A DNA stretch of 41,025 nt from Patescibacteria group bacterium (lineage in GTDB: Bacteria > Patescibacteriota > Patescibacteriia > Patescibacteriales > JAQTRU01). Shown piece by piece: positions 196 to 18,116 of this stretch (the first letter of the stretch is position 1; each line of letters starts with the position of its first letter). The position numbers and the translations under genes were made by a program. Under the pieces are notes generated by a model. The model saw nothing but the letters and a program-made list of their open reading frames with translations. It made no database searches and had not been told where the DNA came from. The DNA is taken from assembly GCA_028711415.1 (NCBI GenBank), contig JAQTSG010000004.1, positions 1 through 41,025 on the forward strand, read 5' to 3'.

Positions 196-3100
196 CTAAT
201 ACATTTCCGCCACTTCCTCCTGCGTCAACGCGCGATTGTATATTCTTACCTCATCAATTTTCCCTTTGAAATAATCCGAAGCATTCTGGGTTCTACCTAA
301 TATAGTCGGATATGATGTTGAAGTAAGTATTGTTCCGGCCGGAGCATCGCTTTTTTCCAATATTCCATTAATATAGATTCTTCTCTCTCCATTTTTATAA
401 GTATAGGCCACGAAATACCAATTATTATTTACTAATCTCTGATTTGAATAGAGATAGGAAGTTGTGCCGGCCCTGATACCCGCTCTTAAGATTCCATTTT
501 TTATCTGGAATACAAACGGATATATGTATTGTCCTCTCGCGATAATTGCTCTCGTTCCCAAAACATCTTCCGGATTAATCCAGGCTGACATCGTAAATCC
601 ATTATCACCGGATATTCCGAACAAACTCGTTCCGACATTAATGCTATCATCCACTCCGTCAAAGTAGTAGGCGGAATCCGCATTTCCGTCTTTATCAGTT
701 GTTAACGCGGCTCCGCTTACAATTCCGTTATTCCCGTTTCCGGAAGCGTCACTAGCGTTCCCGCTCATTGGGAGATAGAGCTTAAGGGAATCATCAACAG
801 CGCTCTCGCACCCTATCGGCGAATAAACACATCCGGAAAGGCTATCGCAAGCGCAAGAAGTACAACTATAAGGAAGAGGCAGACAGGCATTGTCATTCGG
901 AGTAAAGCTGCAGCTATTTGTTTCTTCATCGCAGGCATCTATGGTGCAGGCAACTGAATCTTCGCAAGTTATCGGCGTTCCGGCTTGGCAAGTATTATTT
1001 AAACAGGTTTCCTGCCCGTTGCAAGATAAACCGTCATCGCAATCGGAATTTTGGGAGCATCCAATTATCACCTGCGTTCTGGCTTCAGCAAATATCCCTT
1101 CTTTTACCGCGATCACTTTAGCCGTATGCGTCCCGATAGAAGAATACGAGCAGACATCGGTTGCCGTTATTGAATCTAGGTCTTGAGAATTATACTGGGC
1201 GCTGAAAGGAAAAGTAATATTTGTTCCCGCGTCCGAGCGGTCGCAGTAGAAAGTATAGTTAACAGTGCCGGTGGCGGTTCCGGAAACCGAAGCCGCTAAG
1301 TCAACGCCGGAAAGAGAGATTATTCCGGAAGATGGGGTTGCGGATAGAGTCGCTGAAAGGGTCGGAACCGGGGTTTCCCCGCTCGGAGTTCCGTCCCAGC
1401 CGGCTAATCTCGCTGCTAGCCACCAAAGGGCTTTAGCTTTTTTTATGTCCAAAGCGTCGTTAGCGTGGTCGCCGGTTATTGTATCCGGCAAATAATCTTC
1501 ATCATATTCAATATGCCGCCGATACACGGTTCTGCCGCTACTGTCTATTAAACTATAGCGCTCCGTATTATCAAAATTCCAGTTTTCAATATCCGCCTGG
1601 TCAAAAAGAATTCCGCCATTAGCTTGCGCGGCCGCGCGAATTTCTTCATTCCACCGGTTCGTATCATATAGAGTGTTAGCCTGGCAATCAGTAACCGCGG
1701 TTTGATAGACAAATTTAGTCTGATTTATAGCGCTGTCATTATTAAAGCCCGCCATTGAAGAAAGGAATAAATCTAAATCCGTATCATCAAATACGCCTTG
1801 GCTATATGTACCGCCGCACATATCCCAGCACCAGGTCCAGATAGAAGCTTTAAACGGATGGCCTTCGTTAATGGCTTGCGCGGCGGTAATTTGCGTATAA
1901 TTGCGAGCTTCTTCAGTTGACCAATAGCGGTTGTCATCAACATTATTCGCGCTCCATTGCGAACCAGTGTAATATGATCTTTCTATTTTTAAAGCGCCGT
2001 CTTCAATTAAATCGTTAGGGTTGGTTCCGATTTGAACGCTGTAGCGCGGGTCCTGCTCTTCCAATAAAGTCAAACCATTGGGAACTTGCGTGCCGTGAGA
2101 AGAGCCCACCCATTGAATTAGCAAATTTTTAGCGGCATTAATCCATTCGTCGGGTATTTGGGAAACATCGGTATGGCGGTGGTCAACAACAATATAGCCG
2201 GCAGGAGTTTCAGAAAAAACCGTAATAGTTGTTCTTGCTTCCGCCAGTATTCCTTCCCTCTCCGCGATTACTTTAGCCGTGTATGTGCCGGCGGTTGAAT
2301 ACGAGCAGATATCCAAGGCTGAAAGCGAAGTTAATGATTGATCGTTGTACTGGGCGCTATAGGGTAAAGTGATATCTGTTCCTGTGTCCCATCGGTCGCA
2401 GTAGAATGTGTAGTTAATATTTCCTGTCGCAGTTCCGGAAACCGAGGCCGCCAAGTCAATTCCGGAAACCGGAGCGGTTCCGGAATTCGGAGTGGCGATA
2501 AGAGAAACGGAGAGGGTAGGATTTGGAGCAACAACTACGGTTTTAGGCGAACCAGCTAATTCCGGGTTAGTCCCCTCCGGAGTGTTAATGGCGTAAACCC
2601 GTATTTCATGGGTTCCCGGAGGCAAGTTTGGAAAAGAATAATTAAACCCGTGATTAGGATCTCCGACTACTCCTTCGCCCGCTCCGACAATGTCCGTTCT
2701 TAATAAATTCGCTAAAACATTCGCGGCCATAACTCCGTCAATATAAACATGGACATTAATCGGATTGGTTCCGACATTTTGGTCAAAAGCCCAACCAATA
2801 ACCCGAGTGGCGGACGCGCTGTCAAAACCACCAATCGGCGGATAATTAGTCGGCTGGGGAACCGTTGCGGTAATAGTTGTTCTTGCTTCCGCCAGTATTC
2901 CTTCCCTCTCCGCGATTACTTTAGCCGTGTATGTGCCGGCGGTTGAATACGAGCAGATATCCAAGGCTGAAAGCGAAGTTAATGATTGATCGTTGTACTG
3001 GGCGCTATAGGGTAAAGTGATATCTGTTCCTGTGTCCCATCGGTCGCAGTAGAATGTGTAGTTAATATTTCCTGTCGCAGTTCCGGAAACCGAGGCCGCC

Positions 3101-4158
3101 AAGTCAATTCCGGAAACCGGAGCGGTTCCGGAATTCGGAGTGGCGATAAGAGAAACGGAGAGGGTAGGCGGATCAACTGGCGGCAGGTTATTTTCGCAGT
3201 CTTGTGGAAAATAAACGCATCCTAAAATACTATCGCAACTGCAAGACGTACAACTGTATGGGAGAGGCAGACAGATATTATTGTTCGGGGTGAAAGCGCA
3301 GCTATCCGTTTCTTCATCGCAAGCATCCATAGTACAGGCAATTGAATCATCGCATGTTATCGTCGTTCCAGCCTGGCAAGCATTATTAGAACAAATTTCA
3401 TACCCGTTGCAATAAAGGCCATCATCGCAATCGGAATCTTGAGCGCATTGAGGAACAATAGTCCCCGCATATAAACCTTCTATTTCCTGTTCGCTTAACA
3501 CCCTGTTGTATATTCTTACCTCATCAATTTTCCCTTTGAAATAATCCGAAGCATTCTGGGTTCTACCTAATATAGTCGGATATGATGTTGAAGTAAGTAT
3601 TGTTCCGGCCGGAGCATCGCTTTTTTCCAATATTCCATTAATATAGATTCTTCTCTCTCCATTTTTATAAGTATAGGCCACGAAATACCAATTATTATTT
3701 ACTAATCTCTGATTTGAATAGAGATAGGAAGTTGTGCCGGCCCTGATACCCGCTCTTAAGATTCCATTTTTTATCTGGAATACAAACGGATATATGTATT
3801 GTCCTCTCGCGATAATTGCTCTCGTTCCCAAAACATCTTCCGGATTAATCCAGGCTGACATCGTAAATCCATTATCACCGGATATTCCGAACAAACTCGT
3901 TCCGACATTAATGCTATCATCCACTCCGTCAAAGTAGTAGGCGGAATCCGCATTTCCGTCTTTATCAGTTGTTAACGCGGCTCCGCTTACAATTCCGTTA
4001 TTCCCGTTTCCGGAAGCGTCACTAGCGTTCCCGCTCATTGGGAGATAGAGCTTAAGGGAATCATCCGCAACGGTTTGTTCCGGCAAAATTAAAAAAGAAG
4101 ACAGCAAAAACGCAACCGCAAGAATGCTGAAACTTCTTAATCTAAACACTTTTTCCAT
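196..4158 (-). CDS. Secreted LamG/Cys-rich multidomain protein with an uncharacterised central domain
   Basis: A 1320-residue exported protein. Residues 1-32 are a signal peptide. Then follow a LamG (concanavalin-like glycan-binding) domain at about 32-230, a Cys-rich module at about 236-322 (pattern SDCDDGLYCNG), a PKD-like domain at 331-430, an Ig-like segment at about 435-545, a second PKD-like domain at 547-646, a central domain at about 650-930, a third PKD-like domain at about 931-1032, a second Cys-rich module and a second LamG domain at about 1122-1320. The core has a GSSHGTQ motif near residue 686, which resembles the SHGSQ motif of some SGNH-like secreted proteins, but I cannot confirm an enzyme. 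The ATG at 4158 has an AGGAGG site 8 bases upstream. The gene is a paralogue of the one at 5801-9040, with the same shell and another core. Probable role, inferred: surface or extracellular polysaccharide recognition. Confidence 0.85.
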   Translation of the reverse strand: MEKVFRLRSFSILAVAFLLSSFLILPEQTVADDSLKLYLPMSGNASDASGNGNNGIVSGAALTTDKDGNADSAYYFDGVDDSINVGTSLFGISGDNGFTMSAWINPEDVLGTRAIIARGQYIYPFVFQIKNGILRAGIRAGTTSYLYSNQRLVNNNWYFVAYTYKNGERRIYINGILEKSDAPAGTILTSTSYPTILGRTQNASDYFKGKIDEVRIYNRVLSEQEIEGLYAGTIVPQCAQDSDCDDGLYCNGYEICSNNACQAGTTITCDDSIACTMDACDEETDSCAFTPNNNICLPLPYSCTSCSCDSILGCVYFPQDCENNLPPVDPPTLSVSLIATPNSGTAPVSGIDLAASVSGTATGNINYTFYCDRWDTGTDITLPYSAQYNDQSLTSLSALDICSYSTAGTYTAKVIAEREGILAEARTTITATVPQPTNYPPIGGFDSASATRVIGWAFDQNVGTNPINVHVYIDGVMAANVLANLLRTDIVGAGEGVVGDPNHGFNYSFPNLPPGTHEIRVYAINTPEGTNPELAGSPKTVVVAPNPTLSVSLIATPNSGTAPVSGIDLAASVSGTATGNINYTFYCDRWDTGTDITLPYSAQYNDQSLTSLSALDICSYSTAGTYTAKVIAEREGILAEARTTITVFSETPAGYIVVDHRHTDVSQIPDEWINAAKNLLIQWVGSSHGTQVPNGLTLLEEQDPRYSVQIGTNPNDLIEDGALKIERSYYTGSQWSANNVDDNRYWSTEEARNYTQITAAQAINEGHPFKASIWTWCWDMCGGTYSQGVFDDTDLDLFLSSMAGFNNDSAINQTKFVYQTAVTDCQANTLYDTNRWNEEIRAAAQANGGILFDQADIENWNFDNTERYSLIDSSGRTVYRRHIEYDEDYLPDTITGDHANDALDIKKAKALWWLAARLAGWDGTPSGETPVPTLSATLSATPSSGIISLSGVDLAASVSGTATGTVNYTFYCDRSDAGTNITFPFSAQYNSQDLDSITATDVCSYSSIGTHTAKVIAVKEGIFAEARTQVIIGCSQNSDCDDGLSCNGQETCLNNTCQAGTPITCEDSVACTIDACDEETNSCSFTPNDNACLPLPYSCTSCACDSLSGCVYSPIGCESAVDDSLKLYLPMSGNASDASGNGNNGIVSGAALTTDKDGNADSAYYFDGVDDSINVGTSLFGISGDNGFTMSAWINPEDVLGTRAIIARGQYIYPFVFQIKNGILRAGIRAGTTSYLYSNQRLVNNNWYFVAYTYKNGERRIYINGILEKSDAPAGTILTSTSYPTILGRTQNASDYFKGKIDEVRIYNRALTQEEVAEMY
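236..795 (-). repeat. 560-bp direct repeat, copy A (C-terminal LamG)
   Basis: Identical over its whole length, as far as I can align by eye, to 3506-4065 (offset 3270). It encodes residues 1122-1308 of the LamG protein. Identity at silent sites points to a recent duplication or gene conversion. Confidence 0.93.
2222..2520 (-). repeat. 299-bp direct repeat, copy A (PKD-like domain 2)
   Basis: Matches 2870-3168 without visible difference (offset 648). It encodes residues 547-646, a PKD-like domain with an FYCDRWD motif. Confidence 0.9.
2870..3168 (-). repeat. 299-bp direct repeat, copy B (PKD-like domain 1)
   Basis: Partner of 2222-2520, encoding residues 331-430. The 648-bp period includes an Ig-like segment present only once. 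A third, diverged PKD-like copy lies near 1065-1367. Confidence 0.9.
3506..4065 (-). repeat. 560-bp direct repeat, copy B (N-terminal LamG)
   Basis: Partner of 236-795. It encodes residues 32-218 of the same protein. The match ends abruptly at both sides, just inside the signal peptide junction and near the end of the LamG domain. Confidence 0.93.
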
Positions 4159-4262
4159 ATTTTTTTGCCTCCTTTTTTTCTAAATGTTTTAATATTTTTT
4201 AATATGTAAATTAATAATTAATATCCCTAAATTTAACTGGCTGCGCTAAGATTAATAATATT

Positions 4263-5717
4263 TTAATTCACGCCTACTCCGCTTGGCGGTGCCGGCGGAG
4301 TCGTATCAGGCTCAGGCGCTGACGAAAGAACATACTCGTAGGCGCCGGCATCGCAAGCCGATCCTTGCGGCCTTATTACCCCATCGTAATCCGTAGAAGG
4401 CGCGTTAGCGCATATTCCTGAATTCACTGCCGGGCTGCTTGCGATATGATGCAAATCCAATTGGGAATAATTGGCAAAAAAAGAGTTTGCTCCCCCTTCC
4501 GTTCTGTAATTTATATTGTGATCGGCCGCGCTGGAGGCGTCCAAAGTCAACGCATAATCGGCGGCGATATTATTTCTGACGATTGAATTGGTGGCGGGAA
4601 CTCCGGCTATGCCTCCATGGATTCGAATTGCCGTATTCATCGAATCGTTGGGCAGATGGTCAAACACCAGATTGTTGGCCACTTTGCTGTTTGAAAGTCT
4701 TTCCAAGGTGATGCCGTGATAATGGCTCGTGATCACTACGTTGTTTTCAACTGTAAAATTGGTCGGAGGCGCGTCAAAAGCGGTGATTCCTTGAGGCGAA
4801 TATTTCAAAGTATCGGTGACGTTGTTTTCGAAGTCCAGAATATAATTGTTCCTGACAATAATGTTGGCCAGGGGCGTAACTTGGTCGGCTCCCCGATGAA
4901 ATTGAATCGCGTCAAGATGGTCGGCGGGATCAGGTTTGAAATAATTTTTAAAAGTGTTGTTTTCGATGATGTTATTGTTATTTAAGACGGTCATGGAATC
5001 GCCTCCAATATTGGTTACGGTGTTGTATTTGATAGTTGAATCTGACGCTCCCACTCTTATGCCCATTCTGATGTTTTTCACTCGGTTATTTGTTATGGTT
5101 ATATTGCTCACATTTGACGAGCTGGTGTAAATGCCGGTGGTTGCTCCGTAGTCAAGCCAATCTTGAGCCGTCCATCCTGTGATGTCGTTTTTTGAAAACA
5201 CATCGTTATTTTCGATCGTTATGTACGAAGCTGGATAAGATATTCCTCTGATTTCTATTAAACTTCTCTTGGTGATCGATCCGCTGTGTTCCGTGCTCAC
5301 GCTCAAACCCTCAAATTTCCATTTGCTTCCCGAACTCAAATATATATATGATAATTTTGGATTATGCCCCGGCGCGGCTTGTATTGAAATATAATCGCTA
5401 TTAAAATAATTTGACAGGGAAATCGCGCCATGGTAGCCGTCCATTAAATAAACCGAATCTCCGGCTTTAATTGGTGCCCCCGAATTCCGGACTGAACCGT
5501 TATAATATTTTGATTCAAACTTATTAGCCGCAAGAACGCTCTCAATTGAACCCCATGGGTGTTCGGACGAACCGTCGCCGGTGGAAGTATTCCCATTAAC
5601 CGGATCGCAATACCAAAGGTTCCCGGACGCTTCGGCCCTGGGGAAAATCAAGAAATGTACAGACAAAGCAAGAATAAAAACGCAAACGAAAATTAAAGAT
5701 TTAAATTTATTTTCCAT
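4263..5717 (-). CDS. Secreted right-handed parallel beta-helix protein
   Basis: A 484-residue exported protein. Residues 1-30 form a signal peptide ending AEA. The body has the spaced N-rich turns typical of right-handed parallel beta-helix proteins (SNITITNNRVKNI, NIIENNTF, NIIVRNNYI, NFTVENNVVI). A C-terminal GVIRPQGSACDAGAYEY segment is of the type that often ends such proteins (choice-of-anchor-Q-like). Families with this fold include pectate lyases, polysaccharide lyases and phage tailspikes. I see no catalytic set that would fix a substrate. The protein ends in PPAPPSGVGVN, which looks like the first strand of a fibronectin type III domain cut short. The same kind of tail ends the protein at 9125-10534. 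No Shine-Dalgarno site is evident before the ATG. It lies between the two LamG genes. Confidence 0.8.
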   Translation of the reverse strand: MENKFKSLIFVCVFILALSVHFLIFPRAEASGNLWYCDPVNGNTSTGDGSSEHPWGSIESVLAANKFESKYYNGSVRNSGAPIKAGDSVYLMDGYHGAISLSNYFNSDYISIQAAPGHNPKLSYIYLSSGSKWKFEGLSVSTEHSGSITKRSLIEIRGISYPASYITIENNDVFSKNDITGWTAQDWLDYGATTGIYTSSSNVSNITITNNRVKNIRMGIRVGASDSTIKYNTVTNIGGDSMTVLNNNNIIENNTFKNYFKPDPADHLDAIQFHRGADQVTPLANIIVRNNYILDFENNVTDTLKYSPQGITAFDAPPTNFTVENNVVITSHYHGITLERLSNSKVANNLVFDHLPNDSMNTAIRIHGGIAGVPATNSIVRNNIAADYALTLDASSAADHNINYRTEGGANSFFANYSQLDLHHIASSPAVNSGICANAPSTDYDGVIRPQGSACDAGAYEYVLSSAPEPDTTPPAPPSGVGVN

Positions 5718-5754
5718 ATATATATATTAGCAAAATTTATCATTTTAAACAACC

Positions 5755-5790
5755 AAAAAAGGCGCAGATATTAGTAAAAGCACCTTTTTT
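5755..5790 (-). terminator. Rho-independent terminator after the LamG/deacetylase gene
   Basis: On the minus strand AAAAAAGGTGC pairs with GCGCCTTTTTT around a 14-base loop. One pair is a G-U wobble that works only on the minus strand. It lies about 10 bases beyond the stop of the 5801-9040 gene, which suggests the next gene has its own promoter. Confidence 0.75.
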
Positions 5791-5800
5791 ATATATTCAT

Positions 5801-8800
5801 CTATTGAATGGCTAAAATTTCATTTTCAGTGAGTGCCCGATTAAATATTTTCACTTCATCAATCTTTCCCTTGAAGTAATCTGCTCCGTTGAATGTTTTT
5901 CCGATTGCGGTTGTTTGATTGGCGGCCGACATGGTTCCCGAAATTGCATTGGTTGCCCTCAACTGACCGTTAACATAGATTTTTCTTTCTCCGTTCTTGA
6001 ATGTAAAGGCCACATGATACCAATTGTTGGCAACCAGGGCTTGATTTGAAGAAAGATAAGAAGTGGCGGAGGTTCTGATGCCCGCTCTCAACAGCCCGTT
6101 TTTCGTTTGGAAGTTGAAAGGATAAATATATTGTCCTCTTGTGATTATTGATCTAATCAAAGAAATGTCTTCGGGGTTAATCCAGGCCGAGACAGTGATT
6201 TCATTAGCCTCATAAATTCCAAAATTGTTCGTGCCAAGACTGATGCTGTCATCCACTCCGTCAAAGTAGTAAGCCGAATCGGCGTTCCCGTCTTTATCCG
6301 TGGTCAATGTCGCTCCGCTTACCGTTCCATTGTTTCCGTTGCCGGACACGTCGTTGGCGTTGCCGGAGAAAGGAAGGTAAAGATTGAGGGATTCATCAAT
6401 CGCGTTCTCGCACCCTTCCGGCAGATAATGGCATCCTGAAATAGAATCGCAATTGCAGGACGCGCAGCTATAAGGAAGAGGCAAGCAGGCATTGTTATTG
6501 GGAGCAAAACTGCAGCTGTCAGTTTCTTCATTGCAGGTATCATCGGTGCAGTCAATGGAATCATTGCAGGTTATGGGAGTTCCCGCGTGGCACGCATTAT
6601 TCGAGCAAGTTTCCGCGCCGTTGCAGAACAGTCCGTCATCGCAATCGGAATTCTGGATGCACTGGACGAATATTTCGGTCCTGGTGACGGTTACTTCTCC
6701 TTTATCCGGAACCGCTTTGACAAGCGCGTATTTGTTCCCTTCATGTTCTATGATTTTGGCTTCGATCGCTTGATTATTTTGAGTCGCGCTCAAACTATTC
6801 CAATCGTTGTTCAATCTGATTTTTATTGTCAAAGGATAAGTGAAATAAACATCGCTCATTTGATCGGTCAAATTGAATTTGATCTCAGATGGGTTCACCG
6901 AAGTTACAGTAAGGGCGTTGGTGTCTCTTTCTTGGCCGTATTTGGCGATATTTTTATGGAGATCAAACCAGATATCCGCTTCCTTGCTTTTAATATACGC
7001 TAATCCGGCCGCGACGCTTTCGTATGTCCTTTCCGGGGGATAATTGACGTTATGGATGAGTATATCCGTCCAGCCCCGATAATAAAATCCGGAGTTCGGA
7101 TCCAGAATCATATCAATAGTGGCCGGACTAATATTATTGGCTTTCGAATTCATATAGCAGGTAGCATTGGCCGAATTTGGATATCCGCCGGTCCATCGGG
7201 CGCTGGTGTAGTACTTGGCGGCCTCAAGGAAATTGTGTTCATACGCTCTGGAGCCGTCGTAAGCTAAAACTTCTCCGGCGTCGTTGCCGAGCCTTTCCTT
7301 GATCAGCCTTTGCGATTCTCTGTATTCTGTGTCATAGCTGCAGCAATCCATAACGTTTTCGGATTGGCAATTATCCGCGCAATGGCCATGGGTCATGGTG
7401 TGAGAACCGATATCATGGCCCATGTTGTACAGCCGCCGCCATACATCCCAGGTGCCCGCGTAGCCCATATTTCCCCGTTCAACATAATCCACAATTATGA
7501 ACCAAGTCATTTTCCAATTGTGAAGATTCATCTGTTCTATCCACCACTCGTGGTCCGGAGTGGCTCCGTCGTCAATAGTGACCGAAGCCGCGCCGACTTT
7601 ATCGTCATTCCACAAAGAAACATCGGCCGCGCCGTAAGTTGACGGCCAAGTTTTACCGGTGAGTGAAAATCGCGGGTTCTGGTAAACAACCGGGCAATCG
7701 GTCAGATTCAATTTTTGGTTTGGATCGGCGGGCGGAATCGGTTCCGAGACATTGATTGTTGTTCTGGCTTCAGCGAAAATTCCCTGTCTCTCGGCAATAA
7801 CTTTTGCCGTATAAATTCCATTGGTGGCGTATGAACAAATATCTGAAACATTTATCGATTCTATGGATTGGGAATTGAATTGGGCGTCAAACGGAGAAGT
7901 CAGGTCGGTACCGAGATCCGAACGGTTGCAATAAAATGTATAATTAATGCTGCCGGTCGCAGTTCCGGAAACTAAAGCGCCCAAATCAATGTCTCCAATC
8001 GGAGCGACTCCGAAATTGGGTGAAGCTGATAACAAAACAGACAAAGTCGGGGGGTCAACCGGAGGCACATTATTCTCGCAATTTTCCGGAAAATAATTGC
8101 ACCCCGAAGCCGAATCGCAGCTGCAAGACGTACAGCTGTAGGGAAGCGGAAAACAGGCGTCATTGTTGGAAATAAAACTGCAGCTATCGCTTTCTTCATT
8201 GCAGGAATCCGAAGTGCAAGAAACGGAATCGTTGCAAACCAAAGGAGTTCCGGTTTGACAAACATTGTTTGAGCAGGTTTCCTGGCCATTGCAAAACAAA
8301 CCATCGTCGCAATCGGAGTTTTGGGTGCATTGGGGAACAATATCTCCCGTATACAGCCCCTGCATCTCCGCCTCCGACAAAACACGGTTATATATCCTCA
8401 ACTCATCAATCTTTCCCTTGAAATAATCCGAGGCATTTTGGGTTCTTCCTATTATTGTCGGATAGGTCGTTGAATTTAATATCGCTCCGGCCGGAACATC
8501 GCTTTTTTCCAATATTCCATCAATGTAAATTTTTCTTTCTCCGTTTTTGTAGGTGAAAGTGACGAAATGCCAATTATTGGCCGTGAGAGCGCGATTCGAA
8601 TATAAATAGGAAGTGTTATTGGTTCTGATTCCTCCTCTTAATATCCCGTTCTTTATTTGGAACGCGAGAGGATACATGTATTGTCCTCTTGAAATTATAT
8701 TTCTGATTCCCGAAACATCCTCCGGATTGATCCACGCCGAGATTGTGAATCCGTCGGCATCGGTTATTCCAAACATTCCCGTTCCGATATTAATGCTGTC

Positions 8801-9040
8801 ATCAACTCCGTCAAAGTAGTAAGCTGAATCGGCGTTCCCGTCTTTATCCGTGGTTAATGTCGCTCCGCTTACCGTTCCATTGTTTCCGTTGCCGGAAACG
8901 TCGTTGGCGTTGCCTGCCATTGGAAGATATACCTTAAGAGCATCTTCGGCCGTTGAGGTTTTTGGCAAAAATAAAAAAGAACAAAAAATTGCCAAAACAC
9001 AAAAGAGGCCTAAATATTTCCATCTAAATACTTTTTTCAT
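5801..9040 (-). CDS. Secreted LamG/Cys-rich protein with polysaccharide deacetylase (CE4, NodB) core
   Basis: A 1079-residue exported protein. After a signal peptide (1-31) come LamG (about 31-226), a Cys-rich module (234-317), a PKD-like domain (327-434), a NodB-type deacetylase core (about 450-760), a second Cys-rich module (789-874) and a second LamG domain (881-1079). The core carries the CE4 motif 1 as TIDDG (near residue 489, the aspartate pair) and the metal-binding motif 2 as SHTMTH (near 547). CE4 enzymes remove N- or O-acetyl groups from chitin-, peptidoglycan- or xylan-like polymers. The substrate here is not visible from sequence. An AGGAGG site lies 8 bases before the ATG, in the same context as the paralogue at 4158. 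Likely a glycan-bound extracellular deacetylase. Confidence 0.85.
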   Translation of the reverse strand: MKKVFRWKYLGLFCVLAIFCSFLFLPKTSTAEDALKVYLPMAGNANDVSGNGNNGTVSGATLTTDKDGNADSAYYFDGVDDSINIGTGMFGITDADGFTISAWINPEDVSGIRNIISRGQYMYPLAFQIKNGILRGGIRTNNTSYLYSNRALTANNWHFVTFTYKNGERKIYIDGILEKSDVPAGAILNSTTYPTIIGRTQNASDYFKGKIDELRIYNRVLSEAEMQGLYTGDIVPQCTQNSDCDDGLFCNGQETCSNNVCQTGTPLVCNDSVSCTSDSCNEESDSCSFISNNDACFPLPYSCTSCSCDSASGCNYFPENCENNVPPVDPPTLSVLLSASPNFGVAPIGDIDLGALVSGTATGSINYTFYCNRSDLGTDLTSPFDAQFNSQSIESINVSDICSYATNGIYTAKVIAERQGIFAEARTTINVSEPIPPADPNQKLNLTDCPVVYQNPRFSLTGKTWPSTYGAADVSLWNDDKVGAASVTIDDGATPDHEWWIEQMNLHNWKMTWFIIVDYVERGNMGYAGTWDVWRRLYNMGHDIGSHTMTHGHCADNCQSENVMDCCSYDTEYRESQRLIKERLGNDAGEVLAYDGSRAYEHNFLEAAKYYTSARWTGGYPNSANATCYMNSKANNISPATIDMILDPNSGFYYRGWTDILIHNVNYPPERTYESVAAGLAYIKSKEADIWFDLHKNIAKYGQERDTNALTVTSVNPSEIKFNLTDQMSDVYFTYPLTIKIRLNNDWNSLSATQNNQAIEAKIIEHEGNKYALVKAVPDKGEVTVTRTEIFVQCIQNSDCDDGLFCNGAETCSNNACHAGTPITCNDSIDCTDDTCNEETDSCSFAPNNNACLPLPYSCASCNCDSISGCHYLPEGCENAIDESLNLYLPFSGNANDVSGNGNNGTVSGATLTTDKDGNADSAYYFDGVDDSISLGTNNFGIYEANEITVSAWINPEDISLIRSIITRGQYIYPFNFQTKNGLLRAGIRTSATSYLSSNQALVANNWYHVAFTFKNGERKIYVNGQLRATNAISGTMSAANQTTAIGKTFNGADYFKGKIDEVKIFNRALTENEILAIQ

Positions 9041-9124
9041 ATTTTTTGCCTCCTTGATATAAATATTAGAAGTTTGTTAGCATTTAACATTCTAGCTGAT
9101 TACATCCTAGCTAGTCAATAGGGA

Positions 9125-10534
9125 TTAATTCACAGCCACTCCCACAGGCGCCGAGGGCGGAATAACGTCTGCCGCCGAAACGGAAACATATTCATAAGCT
9201 CCCCTGTCCCAGACGCCGTCTGAACCTCGGGCATTGCCCGAAAGATCCAAATTATACGGGGAGGAAAGAGAAAAACCCGTTTGAGTCGCTGAAGTTAACC
9301 TGAAATCCAAGCTGCTTATATCCGTAAAGGGATTGCCGGCCATCACCTGTTCATGCGTTTCAGCCCCATGGCTTCCCCCAATAAATAAATCATAATCGTA
9401 AACACTGGTCGTGTCGCCGGAAGCGAAAGAATAACTGGAGTTTTCGCAATTATACCAAATGTTATTGTAAATCTGATGCCCGCCGGAAGTGGTTACGCCA
9501 TTAGCAAAAGCTATGCCGGTAACCCCATACGCGCCGTCTATATTGGCAAAAGTATTATTATATATTTTCCAATTGTTAGCTTCCTGCCCGTTTATAACCA
9601 CGATTGTGCCGTTAGTAACGTTGTATTCTCTTCCGCCTCCTAGAAAAATATTTCCATAAATTTCCCAATTATCAGAAACCGCGAAACTTCCCCTGCTTAA
9701 TATATCCAGCCAGGCGGTTCCCATGTTTTCCCTGAAAAAATTATTTTTAATGACTATATTATCGCTTCCGGAATCAGCCCAGGGCGCCGAATGCTGAAGT
9801 GCGCATTCTCGGTTCCGATAAAGATAGCTGTGCTCTAAAGTCAACCGATTTATATCTTGCGTTAATAAATGGACTCTGCCTGAATGCTTAAAAGAGCAAT
9901 AGGATAATAATATGTCACTTCCTCCCAGGGCATAGAAGGCGTCATGATCCCAGGCCGTTGTCCCTCCGATATCGCCTTCAAAGACCATATCAGTATGCCG
10001 AATTGAGATGTTGCTGGAATTGTTATATACAGATGCCAGCTTCGTGCCGTTTACATCGCTTTGGGTTGTAATTTTAAAACCGTATCCCGAATCCCATGAT
10101 CCTTGCCCGCCGCCGACTTGTCCATTGAATTCCCAAAATGAAGTATAAAATCTTATTGAAGCGTCAAACACCGCTTGCCCGTCTCCATAGCTGGAATTCC
10201 ACCCCGCATCAGTCCCATGATCCGACTCTATGGCTTTTTTTATGGTGATATATTGAGTTCCACTAACCGCGTCGTCAAAAGTGTAAGAACTATACGCCCC
10301 ATCAGCGATATAGTAAGTATCCCCTCGCGCTAAAGTCGCGGGCAGATTCGTCCAGGCATTAGTCCAATCAGAGCCGTTGTTTAAACCGGTAGCGCCAGCT
10401 CGGACATAATGAAAATCCCCAGCCGCTTTGGCGGGTTGGGTTTTTAAAGTCTGATGTAAATTTATATAGAAGAAAGTTAAAAAACTAAAGAAAAAAACAA
10501 ACAAGGCGATTTTTAACAGTCTAAATTTAGGCAT
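9125..10534 (-). CDS. Secreted right-handed parallel beta-helix protein
   Basis: A 469-residue protein starting MPKFRLLKIALF with a signal peptide or N-terminal anchor (about 1-36). I prefer the ATG at 10534 over one 30 bases upstream, because an AGGAGG site at 10548-10553 lies 13 bases before it and overlaps the stop of the fibre gene. The body shows beta-helix turns (NNSSNISIRHTDMVF, NIVIKNNFF, NWEIYGNIF, NWKIYNNTF). It ends with DGVWDRGAYEYVSVSA, then IPPSAPVGVAVN, the same truncated fibronectin-like tail as the protein at 4263-5717. Stop-to-start overlap with the fibre gene suggests co-transcription and translational coupling, so the two products may act together at the surface. Enzyme activity cannot be assigned. 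Confidence 0.8.
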   Translation of the reverse strand: MPKFRLLKIALFVFFFSFLTFFYINLHQTLKTQPAKAAGDFHYVRAGATGLNNGSDWTNAWTNLPATLARGDTYYIADGAYSSYTFDDAVSGTQYITIKKAIESDHGTDAGWNSSYGDGQAVFDASIRFYTSFWEFNGQVGGGQGSWDSGYGFKITTQSDVNGTKLASVYNNSSNISIRHTDMVFEGDIGGTTAWDHDAFYALGGSDILLSYCSFKHSGRVHLLTQDINRLTLEHSYLYRNRECALQHSAPWADSGSDNIVIKNNFFRENMGTAWLDILSRGSFAVSDNWEIYGNIFLGGGREYNVTNGTIVVINGQEANNWKIYNNTFANIDGAYGVTGIAFANGVTTSGGHQIYNNIWYNCENSSYSFASGDTTSVYDYDLFIGGSHGAETHEQVMAGNPFTDISSLDFRLTSATQTGFSLSSPYNLDLSGNARGSDGVWDRGAYEYVSVSAADVIPPSAPVGVAVN

Positions 10535-10547
10535 ATTGATTAGTTGT

Positions 10548-10553
10548 CCTCCT
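10548..10553 (-). promoter_or_regulatory. Shine-Dalgarno site overlapping the upstream stop codon
   Basis: AGGAGG on the minus strand overlaps the TAG stop (10552-10554) of the fibre gene and serves the ATG at 10534. This decides the start and suggests translational coupling. Confidence 0.75.
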
Positions 10554-13500
10554 ATTTCGCGCATCTAAAACCAATATTTTCATTAAACTCCATGGGGCCA
10601 TAGCTTAAATCAAGCCCAAAAATGCCACTTTGGCCACGGACAAATGCCCTTGAATTTCCCCCGCTTACAGTTACTTTAATTTTACCAATTCCATTGTCGG
10701 AGTTCAAATAATAAGGCGGCGCTATGTCAAGCCCTTTAAAGTCACTAATTTCAGAATACTCGGTCCAGCCAGCAGAAGACGAGATCGGCAATTCAGCTCG
10801 CGTAATAATTTTATCAATCCACTCGCCTATGCCGTCATTTATATAAAATTCATTTCCATTATTCAAAACATACGCCCCATTCTCATTTTTCCGTGTTAGT
10901 CCGCTCGAGTCCGTGTTAGTCCGCGCGCGCAAAATATTTTCGGCAATCGTCATCCATTCATTGTCATTCATGAGATGATAATTATCGCCCAATTCTTGGC
11001 AAGTCAATTGCGCCTCTCCCTGGCTCAAATTAACCGCGATGCCCCCCGCTTCTAATTCGTTCATTTCATTTAAATTCGCTTGATTCGTGTTTGCGAGCTT
11101 TGCTTGCACGCAGAATCCCGGAAGCGTGCCATACTTCGCGCTCCCCGGCGCCCAGACAAATCCGTCTTCGCAATAACCCTCAAAAGCCCCGGCTACGACT
11201 TTTCCTTCCACGCCGATATCGCCGGCCGTTTCATCAACCGCTTCTTCCAAAGCGCTTCCGCAGGCCCCGCCGGCGCAGGCCATAATCCGCCCGTCAACCA
11301 GCAAAGTGCCAACAATTGAAACTTTGCCACTATTATTAATATTTAAGACACTCACCTCGTTGGCCTGAAAATCGGCGATATCGCCGGAACCGGACTGATT
11401 AATCACGAACGCGGTTGTTTCTGTGCTGGTTGCGGTTACGATTTCAACTCCGGCAATTCCGTTTACGCTCATTTTCCCATTATTATCAATTGAAAGCTTA
11501 TCCTCCATAGCCATGGCGAAGGAGGAGTAATTTGTAATTTGGGATGTTAAACTTGCCAATTGATCATTGAAAATTGAAAATTGATTCCTGATTCCTAATT
11601 CATAATTCATAATTCTATTTTCCATTCCTGCCAACACATTTATTATCGCATCAATTTCGTTTTCAACGCTTACAATCTTTTCCCCCATATCATCCGAAGC
11701 GACCGTAAGCTTTGTCTCTAAAAGCAATAATTTCGGATCAACATTATTTCCGATTTCTTGGTCTAAATCTAAATTATTTATGGCGTTAGCTATTAAAATA
11801 TTTACCTCGTCCTCAATTTCCATATTAGCGATTCTCTTTGTTACCTGCTCTTCTACCTGCTCAACTGTTAAGCTTTTATTTCGGCGGGAAATCAAGACAT
11901 TTATTTCCCCTTTTTCCGAATCCAAACTCTCAAGGGCGACTCCCACCGTCGGATCGCCGGCATTAGCGCGCATGGCATAGCCCGGAGTTGAAGAAGCGCT
12001 GGTTAAACTGTCGCCCGGACGAATTGGCCCGTTTTCCGCGGAAACCTTAGCCGGAATCTGGCCGAGCATGGCGATAATCTTATAATTTGGATTATTGGCA
12101 AACCCCGCTTTGTTATTGCCGATAATCGCCGGCTTGGTTGAAACCACGCCCATCAAGTTGCCGTCAGCCACCCGCTTGCATCTTTCCACCGCGTTATTTT
12201 TGGCTACATCCACGCAAACCGTTTCGCCTGATTGTAAATCCGTATCAACGGTATAGAAATATTCGGCGTAGTCGGCTGAAGGCGACGAGGCCGCGCCGTC
12301 ATAGGCGATATCTCCGTCTTCATCTACCGTAAAAATTGTCTCACTCGTGGAAGTGGAGATGGCAAAAATTACTTCATTCTCGGCCGGCGAAGCTTTAACC
12401 ACCGCGAGCTTGGCATAAGGGGAAGTTGTGCCGATGCCGACATTACCGGCCGTGGTCAGACGCATTACTTCATCGCCTGTACCCAGTCTCGCGCTGCCGG
12501 CAACGTCTAAAGTGTAAGCCGGGCTTGTTGTGCCGATGCCGATTTTGCCAAGGGATGAGATAAATAAAGTTGATGTGGCCTGTGCCGCACCGGCGTCATC
12601 GCCAACAATAAAATTACCTTTAGCCAAAAGAATATCATCAAGACTATTCCAACCGCCTCCGGTCGGCGAGGTGGTAGCGATTACCAAGCCATTAGCGTCA
12701 ACCGCGAGAAATGTTCCGGCTGGAGTGGCTAAAGAGGAAATTGAGATTGAAGAAGTGGCAGTGATGGCCGAAACCGTTATTGTTCCGTCCACCGCGATAT
12801 TGCCGGCTACGGATAACGTGGCGTAGGGAGAAGTTGTCCCAATGCCGAGATTGCCAAGAAAATATCCGGTGCCGTTTTCTAAAAAACTCACTAAGGTGGT
12901 AGAAGCGGAATTCGTAAGTTCAAAAAGTCTATTAGTTCCCGCGCCCGCGCCCCAGACCGAGAGGTGAGAATAAGGGGTGGTAGTGCCGATGCCGATATTG
13001 CCGTCTGCGTCAACTACTAATCTATCTAAATTAGCTGTATAAATTCCCAGCTTATCGGCAGACAGATAGTGATAACCAACTGAACTATCAGATAAAAAAC
13101 CAACATTATTAGTGGTTTGTAATGTTCCACCACCTATCCCTAATCTTAAAGTTCCATCAATAGTAAAATTAACTACAGAACTTCCGAAATATATACCCGT
13201 ATCAGTATTCGAAGATTGAGCAATTGTAGGATAAGTCGCGGATCCTGTTTCTACTAAAATCTGCCCAACATCGTTAACAGATAATATGCTCCCTCCGGTT
13301 GAAGAAGCTATATTTAGAATCGATTGACCCGCCACGCCTTGGACAGAAAGTTTTGACAAGGGCGAACTTGTTCCTATGCCAAATTTTCCTGATAAATATC
13401 CTGTTCCATTTTCTAAAACAGACATCAATGTTGTTGAAGCGGTATCAGTTAATTCAAAAAGTCTATTAGTTCCCGCTCCCGCGCCCCAGACCGAGAGTTT

Positions 13501-16500
13501 AGAGTAGGGAGTGGTTGTGCCAATGCCGATATTGCCAACTGCGTCAATCACTAATCTATTAGTACTAGCCGTATAGATAGCCATTTTATCGGCAGCAAGA
13601 TATCTATAACCAAGTGAAGCATCGCCATCAAAAGTAACATTGTCTGGGGTTAACATGGAAGTATTCCCAACTCCAAATACTCCGGTGCCATTAATAGAAA
13701 TACTAACCATATCATTTGCTATATATATACCCGTATCCTTATTGGAAATTTGGGCAAGCCCCGGAATAAGACTCGATCCTCCTTCAATTAAAATCTGCCC
13801 GCTTGCTACTTCCAACGAGCCGGTCGGACTCGTCGTCCCAATTCCCACATATCCATTCGCCAGCACTGTAAACAAAGTTGAAGTAGCGGTTCCGGCAGTT
13901 GTGGAAGCAATCGTGAATAACGGGGTGTTCACGGCAGTACTGGCGGAATTTGAAAGGGATAATAGAGCGTATGGAGAAGTTGTGCCGATACCGACGAAGC
14001 CATCCCGAATTATTCTCATTCTTTCAACACCTGCGCCGACAACTTCACCTGTCAAGAATTTAAAGCCAGTAGAGCTATCAGAAAAAAGTTCTCCGCTATT
14101 GCTGCCTATAGTGACGCCATTGCCATAAATAGTGTTTGATGTATAAATTGACCCATTCACATTCAATTTATAATCTCCCGGCGCCGCCGTCCCAATTCCC
14201 ACATTTCCCGAAGAATAATCATAAACGAATCCGCTGGTTTCAATAGCAAGGCCTCCGGCGAAAGTTGAAGTTGCCGACGCCGAAGTGGCGGTAAAATATG
14301 GAGCCGAAATTGAAGAAGTGGCAGTAAGGGAAGAAGCCGTGATTGTCCCGTCCGCCGCGATATCGCCGGCCACGGATAGTTTGGCGTAGGGAGAAGTTGT
14401 GCCGATACCAACCGCTGAATTTCTGATTCCGCCGGCCGCGTCAGATTCAGCGTAAACAGTTAATAATTGATTGCTGTCAATCGCAAGACCGGCGCTCATC
14501 TTAGTGCCGGCAGCCGCTGAAGAAGACACCGGCATATTAAATAAGGTAATTTGACCGGCGTCTTCAGACGCTTCTAAACTTCCGGTTAAAATAGGCGCTC
14601 CGAATTCTATTTCGTGATTGGAATTAATTTTTACCAGATTAGTGGACGTCCCTGTCGTATCCGTCGTATAAATCCAGCTATCATTTTGAATCCCAATGGC
14701 GCCCAAAGAATTTATTGAGAGCATTGAATAACCGGTAGTGGAAGCGATATTTAAAGCCGAAACTCCCGCAGTTCCATTTATATAGAACTGGCTGGATGGA
14801 GCCGCGGTATTTACTCCCAAATATCCGCTCGGGTTAATATAAAAGCTATTGGCCGGAGCCGCCTTATTTACGGTGAGTCCCGCGTTATTACCGGCGGTAA
14901 ATCCTCCGCTAATCGTCGTGGTCGCGGTTGCCACCGGCGCGTAAATATTTCCATCTTCGGTGGCGTAAAAAAGAGTGGTTGAAGCGGTATTGGTTAATTC
15001 AAAAAGTCTATTTGCTCCTGATCCCGCGCCCCAGACAGAGAGTCTTGAATACGGAGTGGTTGTGCCGATGCCGACATTGCCGGTTGAAGACACAAATATT
15101 GAAGACGTGGCTTGCGATAATCCGTCATCATCACCGACTAAAAATAATCCTTTAGCCAGAGCGCTTCCGGTTAAAGAACCTCCCGAACCAATAGCCGCCC
15201 AAGAGCCGCCTAAACTTTTAAATTCCATCGCGCCCGCGTTATCCCTGAAACCATAGCCGTTTGAAGATGTGGTAGTGCCAAAATTTAAATATCTATTTTC
15301 ACCTTCAACGAATAAATTTCCATAAACTGAAAGTTTGGAAGATGCCGTGGTTGTGCCTATTCCAAAATTTCCCAATAAGTACCCGCTTCCATTTTCAAGA
15401 ACATACATTAATGTTGTCGATGCGTTATTGGTTAATTCAAACAGGCGATCCGTTCCCGCTCCAGCTCCCCAGACCGAGAATTTAGAATAAGGAGTGGAGG
15501 TGCCGATGCCGACGTTGCCGTCTGTATAGTAAATACTTGTCCCAGAAATATCCCAGGTTCCGCCGGAAGCGCTCCCTATGTTAGTCCAAGTTCCGCCTGA
15601 ATTTTTAAACTGCAAAGTTCCGCTTGAGTCGCGGAGGCCGTAGCCGTTTGAGCCGTCCGTATAACCCCAGTTAATATATTGGCCTTCTCCTAAACCGAGA
15701 TTGCCGGCAATATCCAATAAATGGTTAGGACTGGTTGTGCCGATGCCAATATTGCCACCGCTAGCAATCATAAAAACTTCGTTTGAACCGTCAAAAATAT
15801 CAACAATATTGCCTGAACTATCTTTACTCACGCTTAAACCGCCGGAGCTTATTAAACCTTCGGTTCCGGCGGAAAGGCCGATAGCGCTGGCAAAACTGCT
15901 TACGCCTAAACTAGTAAGCTGGGTATGCCCGGCGGAAAATGTGCCGCTTACATTTAAAAAATTAGTATTTAACGTGCCACCCACGTTTAGATTACTGTTG
16001 ATGGTGGCATTATTAGCGCTTAAAGTAGAACCTACGGAAACATTGCCGGAAAATTCGCTTGGGCCGCTTACGTTAAGCCCGCCCCCGACTTTTACTGGAC
16101 CGTCGCCGTAGATCGTGCCTCCGACTATTAGGTCGTCATTGAAAGTGGCCGCGCCCCGGACTAATAAATTTCCCCCCACTATTGTGGTTAGACCGGTTGA
16201 AGACGGTAAAACTGTAGTCTGCGGCTGGACAACAACTTGGGTTGAAGCGGCTATCCCGCCCGGGCTTGCCGAGACCGGAGCGGAAACGGCCGGAGCGGAA
16301 GTAACCGGGGTTAAAGGAGCCGTTCCAACCGCCGGCTTTTTAGCCGGAGCGGCAACTTTAGGAGCAGTTGGAGAAATAATCGCGGCCGCTCCCCCTTCTT
16401 TAGCGGGAACTTCTTTAGCGGGAACTTCGACCAACTTTTTCTCTTCTTGTTGCTGGCTATAATATCTTTTTAAGGAATCTGGGATTATAAAATCTATAAA

Positions 16501-18036
16501 TTTCGTATAAAGATCAAGAAGCGACTCGGTTGACCGGGAAGTTTCTTTCAAAAAATTAACTCTACTAATCTCGGTATAGTTTTTTACTCTCTCATTAGTT
16601 TCCGTAAGATCAGTCCCCAGTAGCGCTAATTTTCCCCCGCCGGCTTCCGACACCCCTTTTACCCGTCCGGCGCTGGCTAAGGTTAAATCGGCTACCTGCC
16701 GATTCAGTTTAAAAGATAAATCTCTTTGGGCTTGAGCTAAATTTTTTAGGGCGGAGGAGAAAAAATCTCTTGCCGTCCCGCTCATCTCAGAAGCGAAAGA
16801 CCGGACTTCGGCAATAACCGAATGGCCGGCGGCTTCGCTTATGCCCGCTACCCGGCCGCGTCCATTATTGTAAGTATCTAAAATATTATTTTTATATTCT
16901 ATCTTGTCCGTATAAAAATTTTGCCAGGCGACAACCGCGCGGCGGGTAAAATTTTCCGCCCGACGGCTTACTATTTTTTTTATTTCTTTTGCCGGCTCTA
17001 TTAATTTTTCCGCTCGGACAATAATTTTTTCTTTAGCCGTCATAATCCGGCTGATTCCTTTTTTTATAACAGCGACATTCGGTTGAATTTTATTTTCATA
17101 AATCGGCTGCCAGGTAGCGCCGGCCTCCTCGGCTAAAACAAATATCTGGCGGCTCAATTTTTCTTTAACCGGTTCAGTAATTTTTTTTACTTCTCCAATC
17201 ATTCCATTCGCATATTGGTTCGCTTTTTTAAAAGCCGGACTCTCGGCCACTAACCCGCTCGCTTCTTCCATCGCTTCTTCCGCCGATTTTACGATTGCCC
17301 GCGTCGCTTCCACCGGAACGGCTAAAGTTTTATCAAGCCCCCGGGCGAAAGAAGCGGAAACGCCCGGAGCAAAGAAAGAAAAAGAAAAAGCAGCCACTAA
17401 TGTCGCGAGACAAATGGCTGCTAATTTCGCTTGCCGGGTTCGCCAAAAATTAAAAATTAATTTTCTTGATTTACCCGCTAAACTATTTACGATGCCAGAA
17501 AAATTTTTAAAAACTTTATTACCCCAATCGGTTATAAAAGTATTCGCGCCATTCGCTTTCACCCGACGAAATTTTTTCTTAACAAATAATTCCCCGGGGT
17601 TAGCTCGCGCCATTCGCATAATACGCGTAATATTTTTTTCTTCCTCGTTCGCCCGCTCGCTCCAGTTATTTAAAGATTCACTTTTTTCATCCGCTTTTTC
17701 TAAAACTGACAGGTCCAGCTCCTCTCTTCTTTTTTTTATAACCCTTTCCCCCGCCTCTTTCTCTTCTAACTTTATCTCTTCTCTTACCCCCCTTTTTTCC
17801 GCTAGTTCTTCCCCTAGATTCTCTTCCAATTTTTCTACTTTCCCGCTACGGGCGTGCATCTCTAAATACTCGCCGAACCACTCCCGCGTCGTAAAATAAT
17901 TCCGGCCGATTTTTTCCGCCCGTAATTTTCCTCTTTGCACCAAAAGGGAAAGATAGGTAACCTTATAAGGCACCTCTTTAGCTAAACGGCGCAGAGGAAT
18001 TAATTTCTTGTATTCCTCTTTATTTTGACTAAGCAT
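10552..18036 (-). CDS. Giant membrane-anchored fibre protein with HTH-like N-terminus and C-type-lectin/FGE-like tip
   Basis: About 2494 residues from the ATG at 18036. A TTG at 18069 would add 11. In order it has a MerR/excisionase-like helix-turn-helix segment (roughly 10-60, with YLSLLVQRGKLRAEKIGR), a charged stretch, one membrane segment near 205-225, long helical regions to about 520, and a Pro/Ala linker. Next come about 15 GIGTTSP-type beta repeats over some 1200 residues (NVGIGTTTPYSKLSVWG), also seen in tail fibres and large surface proteins. Then a SADYAEYF...GVVSTKPAIIGNN region resembling autoprocessing or collar domains, a short coiled coil, and a final 140-residue domain ending NIGFRCAK. 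That tip resembles the FGE-sulfatase/C-type lectin fold used by variable proteins of diversity-generating retroelements. Topology inferred: HTH part in the cytoplasm, fibre outside, possibly for attachment to a host or partner cell. Confidence 0.8.
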   Translation of the reverse strand: MLSQNKEEYKKLIPLRRLAKEVPYKVTYLSLLVQRGKLRAEKIGRNYFTTREWFGEYLEMHARSGKVEKLEENLGEELAEKRGVREEIKLEEKEAGERVIKKRREELDLSVLEKADEKSESLNNWSERANEEEKNITRIMRMARANPGELFVKKKFRRVKANGANTFITDWGNKVFKNFSGIVNSLAGKSRKLIFNFWRTRQAKLAAICLATLVAAFSFSFFAPGVSASFARGLDKTLAVPVEATRAIVKSAEEAMEEASGLVAESPAFKKANQYANGMIGEVKKITEPVKEKLSRQIFVLAEEAGATWQPIYENKIQPNVAVIKKGISRIMTAKEKIIVRAEKLIEPAKEIKKIVSRRAENFTRRAVVAWQNFYTDKIEYKNNILDTYNNGRGRVAGISEAAGHSVIAEVRSFASEMSGTARDFFSSALKNLAQAQRDLSFKLNRQVADLTLASAGRVKGVSEAGGGKLALLGTDLTETNERVKNYTEISRVNFLKETSRSTESLLDLYTKFIDFIIPDSLKRYYSQQQEEKKLVEVPAKEVPAKEGGAAAIISPTAPKVAAPAKKPAVGTAPLTPVTSAPAVSAPVSASPGGIAASTQVVVQPQTTVLPSSTGLTTIVGGNLLVRGAATFNDDLIVGGTIYGDGPVKVGGGLNVSGPSEFSGNVSVGSTLSANNATINSNLNVGGTLNTNFLNVSGTFSAGHTQLTSLGVSSFASAIGLSAGTEGLISSGGLSVSKDSSGNIVDIFDGSNEVFMIASGGNIGIGTTSPNHLLDIAGNLGLGEGQYINWGYTDGSNGYGLRDSSGTLQFKNSGGTWTNIGSASGGTWDISGTSIYYTDGNVGIGTSTPYSKFSVWGAGAGTDRLFELTNNASTTLMYVLENGSGYLLGNFGIGTTTASSKLSVYGNLFVEGENRYLNFGTTTSSNGYGFRDNAGAMEFKSLGGSWAAIGSGGSLTGSALAKGLFLVGDDDGLSQATSSIFVSSTGNVGIGTTTPYSRLSVWGAGSGANRLFELTNTASTTLFYATEDGNIYAPVATATTTISGGFTAGNNAGLTVNKAAPANSFYINPSGYLGVNTAAPSSQFYINGTAGVSALNIASTTGYSMLSINSLGAIGIQNDSWIYTTDTTGTSTNLVKINSNHEIEFGAPILTGSLEASEDAGQITLFNMPVSSSAAAGTKMSAGLAIDSNQLLTVYAESDAAGGIRNSAVGIGTTSPYAKLSVAGDIAADGTITASSLTATSSISAPYFTATSASATSTFAGGLAIETSGFVYDYSSGNVGIGTAAPGDYKLNVNGSIYTSNTIYGNGVTIGSNSGELFSDSSTGFKFLTGEVVGAGVERMRIIRDGFVGIGTTSPYALLSLSNSASTAVNTPLFTIASTTAGTATSTLFTVLANGYVGIGTTSPTGSLEVASGQILIEGGSSLIPGLAQISNKDTGIYIANDMVSISINGTGVFGVGNTSMLTPDNVTFDGDASLGYRYLAADKMAIYTASTNRLVIDAVGNIGIGTTTPYSKLSVWGAGAGTNRLFELTDTASTTLMSVLENGTGYLSGKFGIGTSSPLSKLSVQGVAGQSILNIASSTGGSILSVNDVGQILVETGSATYPTIAQSSNTDTGIYFGSSVVNFTIDGTLRLGIGGGTLQTTNNVGFLSDSSVGYHYLSADKLGIYTANLDRLVVDADGNIGIGTTTPYSHLSVWGAGAGTNRLFELTNSASTTLVSFLENGTGYFLGNLGIGTTSPYATLSVAGNIAVDGTITVSAITATSSISISSLATPAGTFLAVDANGLVIATTSPTGGGWNSLDDILLAKGNFIVGDDAGAAQATSTLFISSLGKIGIGTTSPAYTLDVAGSARLGTGDEVMRLTTAGNVGIGTTSPYAKLAVVKASPAENEVIFAISTSTSETIFTVDEDGDIAYDGAASSPSADYAEYFYTVDTDLQSGETVCVDVAKNNAVERCKRVADGNLMGVVSTKPAIIGNNKAGFANNPNYKIIAMLGQIPAKVSAENGPIRPGDSLTSASSTPGYAMRANAGDPTVGVALESLDSEKGEINVLISRRNKSLTVEQVEEQVTKRIANMEIEDEVNILIANAINNLDLDQEIGNNVDPKLLLLETKLTVASDDMGEKIVSVENEIDAIINVLAGMENRIMNYELGIRNQFSIFNDQLASLTSQITNYSSFAMAMEDKLSIDNNGKMSVNGIAGVEIVTATSTETTAFVINQSGSGDIADFQANEVSVLNINNSGKVSIVGTLLVDGRIMACAGGACGSALEEAVDETAGDIGVEGKVVAGAFEGYCEDGFVWAPGSAKYGTLPGFCVQAKLANTNQANLNEMNELEAGGIAVNLSQGEAQLTCQELGDNYHLMNDNEWMTIAENILRARTNTDSSGLTRKNENGAYVLNNGNEFYINDGIGEWIDKIITRAELPISSSAGWTEYSEISDFKGLDIAPPYYLNSDNGIGKIKVTVSGGNSRAFVRGQSGIFGLDLSYGPMEFNENIGFRCAK
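10555..10660 (-). other. Candidate variable region of a C-type-lectin tip
   Basis: Encodes RAFVRG to GFRCAK at the end of the fibre. In retroelement target proteins this is where the variable region sits. Many exposed codons are NNY (AGT, ATT, TTT, CTT, GAT, AGC, TAT, AAT), as expected from adenine-directed mutagenesis of AAY template codons, although CAA and GAG do not fit. No reverse transcriptase or template repeat is in the window. Confidence 0.35.
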
Positions 18037-18116
18037 GGGGATAGCTTTTTTCTGCCTTTTTATGGGCAAAAAACGATTTTATATTATCAGAACATTATCA
18101 TAGCTTCCTATTAACA

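Follow-up and report, generated by a model that had tools for sequence, protein, structure and literature searches.

Two putatively secreted proteins of a Patescibacteria group bacterium with the same LamG and Cys-rich ends and different, probably de-acylating cores

The window analysed here, 41,025 bases long, is the whole of contig C23, one of 68 contigs in a draft genome that totals 1.10 Mb. Two of the window's genes, A (196-4158) and B (5801-9040), encode probable secreted proteins of 1320 and 1079 amino acids. An earlier note on this DNA described them as genes at these positions, and open frames are indeed there, but they lie on the minus strand, as do all the window features given below. 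Protein A has the order signal-LamG-Cys-PKD1-Ig-like-PKD2-core-PKD3-Cys-LamG, with a core that we take up below as SGNH-like, and protein B has the order signal-LamG-Cys-PKD-CE4 core-Cys-LamG. Between B and A lies the gene of a parallel beta-helix, choice-of-anchor Q protein (4263-5717), and a putative second secreted protein is encoded at 9125-10564. The protein encoded at 10552-18069, 2505 amino acids long, matches no Pfam family and has numerous repeats of the GIGTTSPY type. The remaining genes of the window are mostly housekeeping genes, including those for ribosomal protein S9, RNA polymerase alpha, alanyl-tRNA synthetase, DnaJ, DnaK, HrcA and IMP dehydrogenase. A literature search found nothing directly relevant.

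The ribosome-binding context of the two genes is the same, as had been noticed before. Within the 41 kb, AAGGAGGCAAAA stands before an ATG only ahead of A and B. The leader of A (4159-4174) contains AAGGAGGCAAAAAAAT, which is common to both genes, and the leader of B (9041-9055) contains AAGGAGGCAAAAAAT; most other listed genes of the window have no clear Shine-Dalgarno sequence. A scan for promoters and terminators gave signals no higher than those of shuffled sequence.

How far is the shell of the two proteins really the same? Each has two matches to the LamG family PF13385 (E about 1e-61), in A at 3506-4065 (N-terminal) and 236-795 (C-terminal), and in B at 8348-8947 and 5804-6397. The Cys-rich module that was read from the sequence is real: its four copies, at 3190-3456 and 802-1068 in A and at 8072-8338 and 6404-6670 in B, are 69-73% identical to the first. 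It resembles the Myxococcus-type Cys-rich repeats (DUF4215 and similar) as a short Cys-rich spacer repeat of secreted proteins, but differs from them in matching no Pfam family. The PKD-like domain falls below the Pfam threshold (E 0.21), yet it is clearly repeated, in A, in B (7751-8050) and in two other proteins of the genome. Protein A has three copies, PKD1 (2870-3168), PKD2 (2222-2520) and PKD3 (1069-1365), and the first two flank an Ig-like (Y_Y_Y-like) module at 2524-2850. The claim of a common shell thus stands for the LamG and Cys-rich modules at both ends and for a PKD, but A adds the Ig-like module, PKD2 and PKD3, the last absent from B, so that the inner borders differ. The signal peptides, said to be of one type, are only 39% identical over their regions.

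Some of these modules occur elsewhere in the genome. The Ig-like module of A has three relatives in a protein of contig C26, one of them directly after a PKD. That protein (L008, 2029-7587, minus strand) is at least 1852 amino acids long and contains a polysaccharide lyase, a CBM6, three Ig-like modules, a PKD, FN3-like modules and C-terminal repeats; two of its Ig-like modules are 90% identical in DNA. On contig C59 (L009:1156-3135) a GH123-type protein has a PKD after it, and this PKD is truncated where the contig ends. The PKD of A is 82% identical in nucleotides to this one (over 41 codons) and 65% identical to that of B. Module sharing with the GH123 and C26 proteins supports, at the level of sequence, a set of proteins with a putative role in polymer processing.

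Core A (1390-2199), recognized earlier as an SHGTQ domain, had been called a domain of unknown kind, and this description needs to be revised. It matches no Pfam family, the GDSL families included, and no relative was found by sequence among solved structures. A search among genomes of the phylum showed that seven others contain relatives; a single-sequence search detected those in five of them, and a profile those in G375 and G730. In the resulting eight-row alignment a serine (S34 of the domain, Ser687 of the protein) and a histidine (H245 of the domain, His898 of the protein) are invariant. The AlphaFold model made with this alignment (pTM 0.85, mean pLDDT 78.8) has the three-layer alpha/beta/alpha arrangement of SGNH hydrolases. 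In VIA-align it is matched by the polyvinyl alcohol esterase 9kr1 (Z 12.5, rmsd 3.4, 185 residues) and an acetyl xylan esterase (Z 12.4), followed closely by GDSL lipases and sialate O-acetylesterases, and Foldseek lists PatB and GDSL esterases first. In SGNH enzymes the block I serine lies at the start of a long helix and the block V histidine just before the last helix. The model of core A has the same placement, its putative nucleophile Ser687 starting a long helix, the first, after a central strand, and its His898 coming just before the last helix. We are accordingly quite confident that core A has, as modelled, an SGNH fold. Core A differs from the known SGNH and GDSL esterases in having SHG in place of GDS and in lacking the block V aspartate three residues before the histidine. 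One relative, P0012, has DGGH at that place, and matches Lipase_GDSL_2 weakly and below the cut-off (4.5e-4). Because no such aspartate is visible in core A, its catalytic set is incomplete on sequence alone, and enzymatic activity, though likely, is not assured. No residues of the alignment were assigned to the block II glycine or the block III asparagine.

Core B (6671-7723) is a CE4 polysaccharide deacetylase domain with a C-terminal extension, and here the earlier reading was right. It scores 42.5 bits against PF01522, where the curated cut-off is 23.1, and carries the Asp-Asp and HxxxH motifs of the CE4 metal site, TIDDG at residue 488 (7565-7579) and SHTMTH at residue 546 (7388-7405), together with LIHN (7049-7060). 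Its best matches in the PDB are peptidoglycan GlcNAc deacetylases such as 4l1g and 5o6y. In spite of these likenesses, core B matches any solved member of the family only weakly (E 0.001), and the C-terminal extension and the LamG-Cys shell set it apart. Among 362 genomes of the phylum core B has only weak, short CE4 matches, so that its nearest shell cannot be traced. No homology was detected between core A and core B. Because core A is SGNH-hydrolase-like and core B is a CE4 domain, both cores are probably de-acylating enzymes, putatively of the O- and N-type respectively, acting on a glycan or another polymer.

It seems well established that A and B are paralogues, and we hold this with high confidence, on the grounds of the LamG tree and of the unusual ribosome-binding leader that both genes have. 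In the tree the four LamG copies of the window group together as a clade (99/97), whose closest neighbours are two LamGs from a single genome of the same order; within the clade the C-terminal copy of B is outermost, followed by its N-terminal copy and then by both copies of A. The tree of the Cys-rich modules gave no resolved branching. Between the shell modules of A and B the synonymous distance is about 1 or more, in many cases beyond measure, and the non-synonymous distance is 0.14-0.28; distances of this size indicate an old pair on which purifying selection acts. A candidate that we rejected is tandem duplication of a two-gene unit of beta-helix protein and shell gene, since the resemblance between the two neighbouring proteins, P0002 and P0004, is weak and confined to their C-terminal parts (26% identity, E 2e-7).

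Gene A also contains two exact repeats that had been overlooked. One, of 560 bp, is common to its two LamGs, and the other, of 299 bp, to PKD1 and PKD2. Every other pair of modules has 56-82% nucleotide identity, and sequences simulated at 71-77% identity never gave an exact run of more than 45 bp. Such repeats suggest that gene conversion or insertion took place recently, or else that the assembly is wrong here. In B a short tract of the N-terminal LamG (8826-8896) is nearly identical to the matching tract of the C-terminal one (6276-6346), with 27-30 of 30 bases identical per block and 18-23 in the surroundings.

Does the shell occur in other genomes, and with which cores? A profile of the Cys-rich module found only the four copies of A and B in this genome, and weaker relatives in 20 other genomes among 381 of the class. 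Among all loci retrieved, LamG is present in 42 frames outside the window and the Cys-rich module in 33, and none of these frames has both modules; in this sample a search of related genomes for the shell, as the earlier note had proposed, yields no further cores. One genome of the same order has a LamG protein with a different Cys-rich family, DUF4215. The two genomes of the same genus have no shell match except one weak LamG. In both of them ribosomal protein S9 adjoins the orthologue of the large upstream gene (the 2505-amino-acid protein); for the gene that follows downstream in a genome of that genus, the present genome offers no more than a weak match, which prevented the other boundary of the cluster from being located. 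Among 84,980 species genomes, only one from the Bacteroidia and one from the Paceibacterota contain anything related to B, and there the likeness is a distant one in LamG. Viral contigs contain no relative of B and one fragment of the core-A family, and phage records give only LamG-like matches, mostly in structural proteins. The relatives of core A keep quite different company: a dockerin in G258, an Ig domain in G398, a beta-helix-like N-terminus in G730, and a cohesin with F5/8C in G375. Core and shell have therefore recombined at least once. Two of these proteins from small-genome bacteria are encoded at L101:1088-2140 on the minus strand (G258; its dockerin is weak) and at L133:2630-3901 (G375, with the cohesin).

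What evolutionary path could lead to one shell with two cores? The earlier note proposed a cassette system, in which the ends are kept and the active centre is swapped. Part of this stands, as the paralogues have kept their outer modules and have non-homologous cores, but the glycan binding by LamG was assumed, and the system itself is not supported. In a cassette system the repeated outer modules would serve as recombination handles for repeated exchange of the core, and related genomes would have the same shell with several cores; we find two cores, both in this genome, and the shell in no other gene of the sample. The core change is old by synonymous divergence, the cores of A and B do not lie at matching inner borders, and Pfam found no integrase or recombinase among the 14 gene products scanned. 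These points weigh against the system even though the exact PKD copies around the Ig-like module are what one would expect after recombination between PKDs, the PKD of A is closer to that of the C59 GH123 protein than to that of B, and core-A relatives do occur in other shells. At the junctions there are internal repeats, of which no identical pair flanks a core on both sides. We regard a cassette system as improbable. The same low standing applies to the proposal that LamG and PKD copies, kept near-identical by gene conversion, act as handles to insert or exchange central modules, with the Ig-like insert between the PKDs as a fresh scar. Combinations of core and shell do vary across the phylum, in the manner of other modular secreted enzymes; for exchange inside this shell, the evidence consists of two genes in a single genome. 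One might also think that A and B gained the same common modules independently, as LamG and Cys-rich modules are each widespread in the class. Such convergence is very hard to reconcile with a single clade of four LamGs, with the identical module order at both ends of the two proteins and with the common leader, and we give it almost no weight.

The exact repeats raise a related issue, that of the assembly. Two such repeats in one gene of a 68-contig draft genome, and a contig (C59) that terminates within a PKD copy, would be expected if the contig joined two genes, or duplicated modules, where an exact repeat exceeds the length of a read. We think such an artefact rather unlikely, and that the repeats are fairly probably real, because the frame of A is open throughout and A has the end-module order of B, whose own copies are diverged. 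The separate short near-identical LamG tract of B argues in the same direction. As for C59, its end is only 83% like A, and so it is not the same repeat; no contig was found that would join this end to another shell.

On balance we favour duplication and ordinary domain shuffling, without a dedicated mechanism for swapping cores, as the reasonably likely course of events. An ancestral gene with LamG and Cys-rich modules at both ends would have been duplicated; the core would now be a CE4 N-deacetylase in one copy and an esterase or O-deacetylase of SGNH type in the other, the centre having been replaced long ago. Two shell genes in a single draft genome are too few to tell which core the ancestor had. 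The outer modules would keep recombining within each gene. The C-terminal LamG of A groups with the N-terminal LamG of B and not with the C-terminal one, which suggests that it was recently overwritten by the N-terminal copy of A, if the direction is read correctly. The PKD may have been duplicated around the Ig-like insert; the position of PKD1 and PKD2 on either side of this module, which has relatives in the C26 protein, one directly after a PKD, fits insertion through PKD recombination.

The proteins next to A and B share a further trait, a C-terminal tail of the form PPxxPxG[LV]xVN-stop. The beta-helix protein ends in PPAPPSGVGVN-stop (4263-4298) and the second secreted protein in PPSAPVGVAVN-stop (9125-9160). 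In G730 the tail is encoded at C2:60736, C2:62393 and C3:5586 (L151, L132 and L152). It looks like an FN3 domain that stops after its first strand, and in most cases it directly follows an end of the GAYEY (choice-of-anchor Q) type. Two of 362 genomes of the phylum contain the exact pattern, none contains the reversed control, and G730 has several more near-variants. A sorting or anchoring tail is possible, going by the motif. G730 also has the closest relative of core A (40-49% identical), near a beta-helix-like protein 35% identical to the second secreted protein of the window (L132:2587-4842 and L132:2-1141). The A/B neighbourhood may be shared with, or have been transferred to or from, this distant genome.

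What might the two proteins do? Most likely they would de-acylate a glycan outside the cell or in its envelope, with the LamG ends as putative glycan-binding modules and with disulphide-stabilised spacers formed by the Cys-rich and PKD modules. The arrangement recalls the multimodular secreted carbohydrate-active enzymes, in which catalytic modules are combined with binding, PKD, FN3 or Ig modules; there too non-homologous catalytic modules sit on shared accessory modules, and paralogues differ in the catalytic module. A and B differ from these in having the LamG-Cys pair at both ends and in having cores that are probable de-acylases. Taken together, A and B appear to be a pair of secreted probable de-acylases with common, presumably binding, modules, and a putative SGNH-type function can now be assigned to a core that matches no Pfam family, in a lineage with a 1.1-Mb genome. 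If the exact repeats are real, gene A would be a good case for module insertion by homologous recombination in small genomes.
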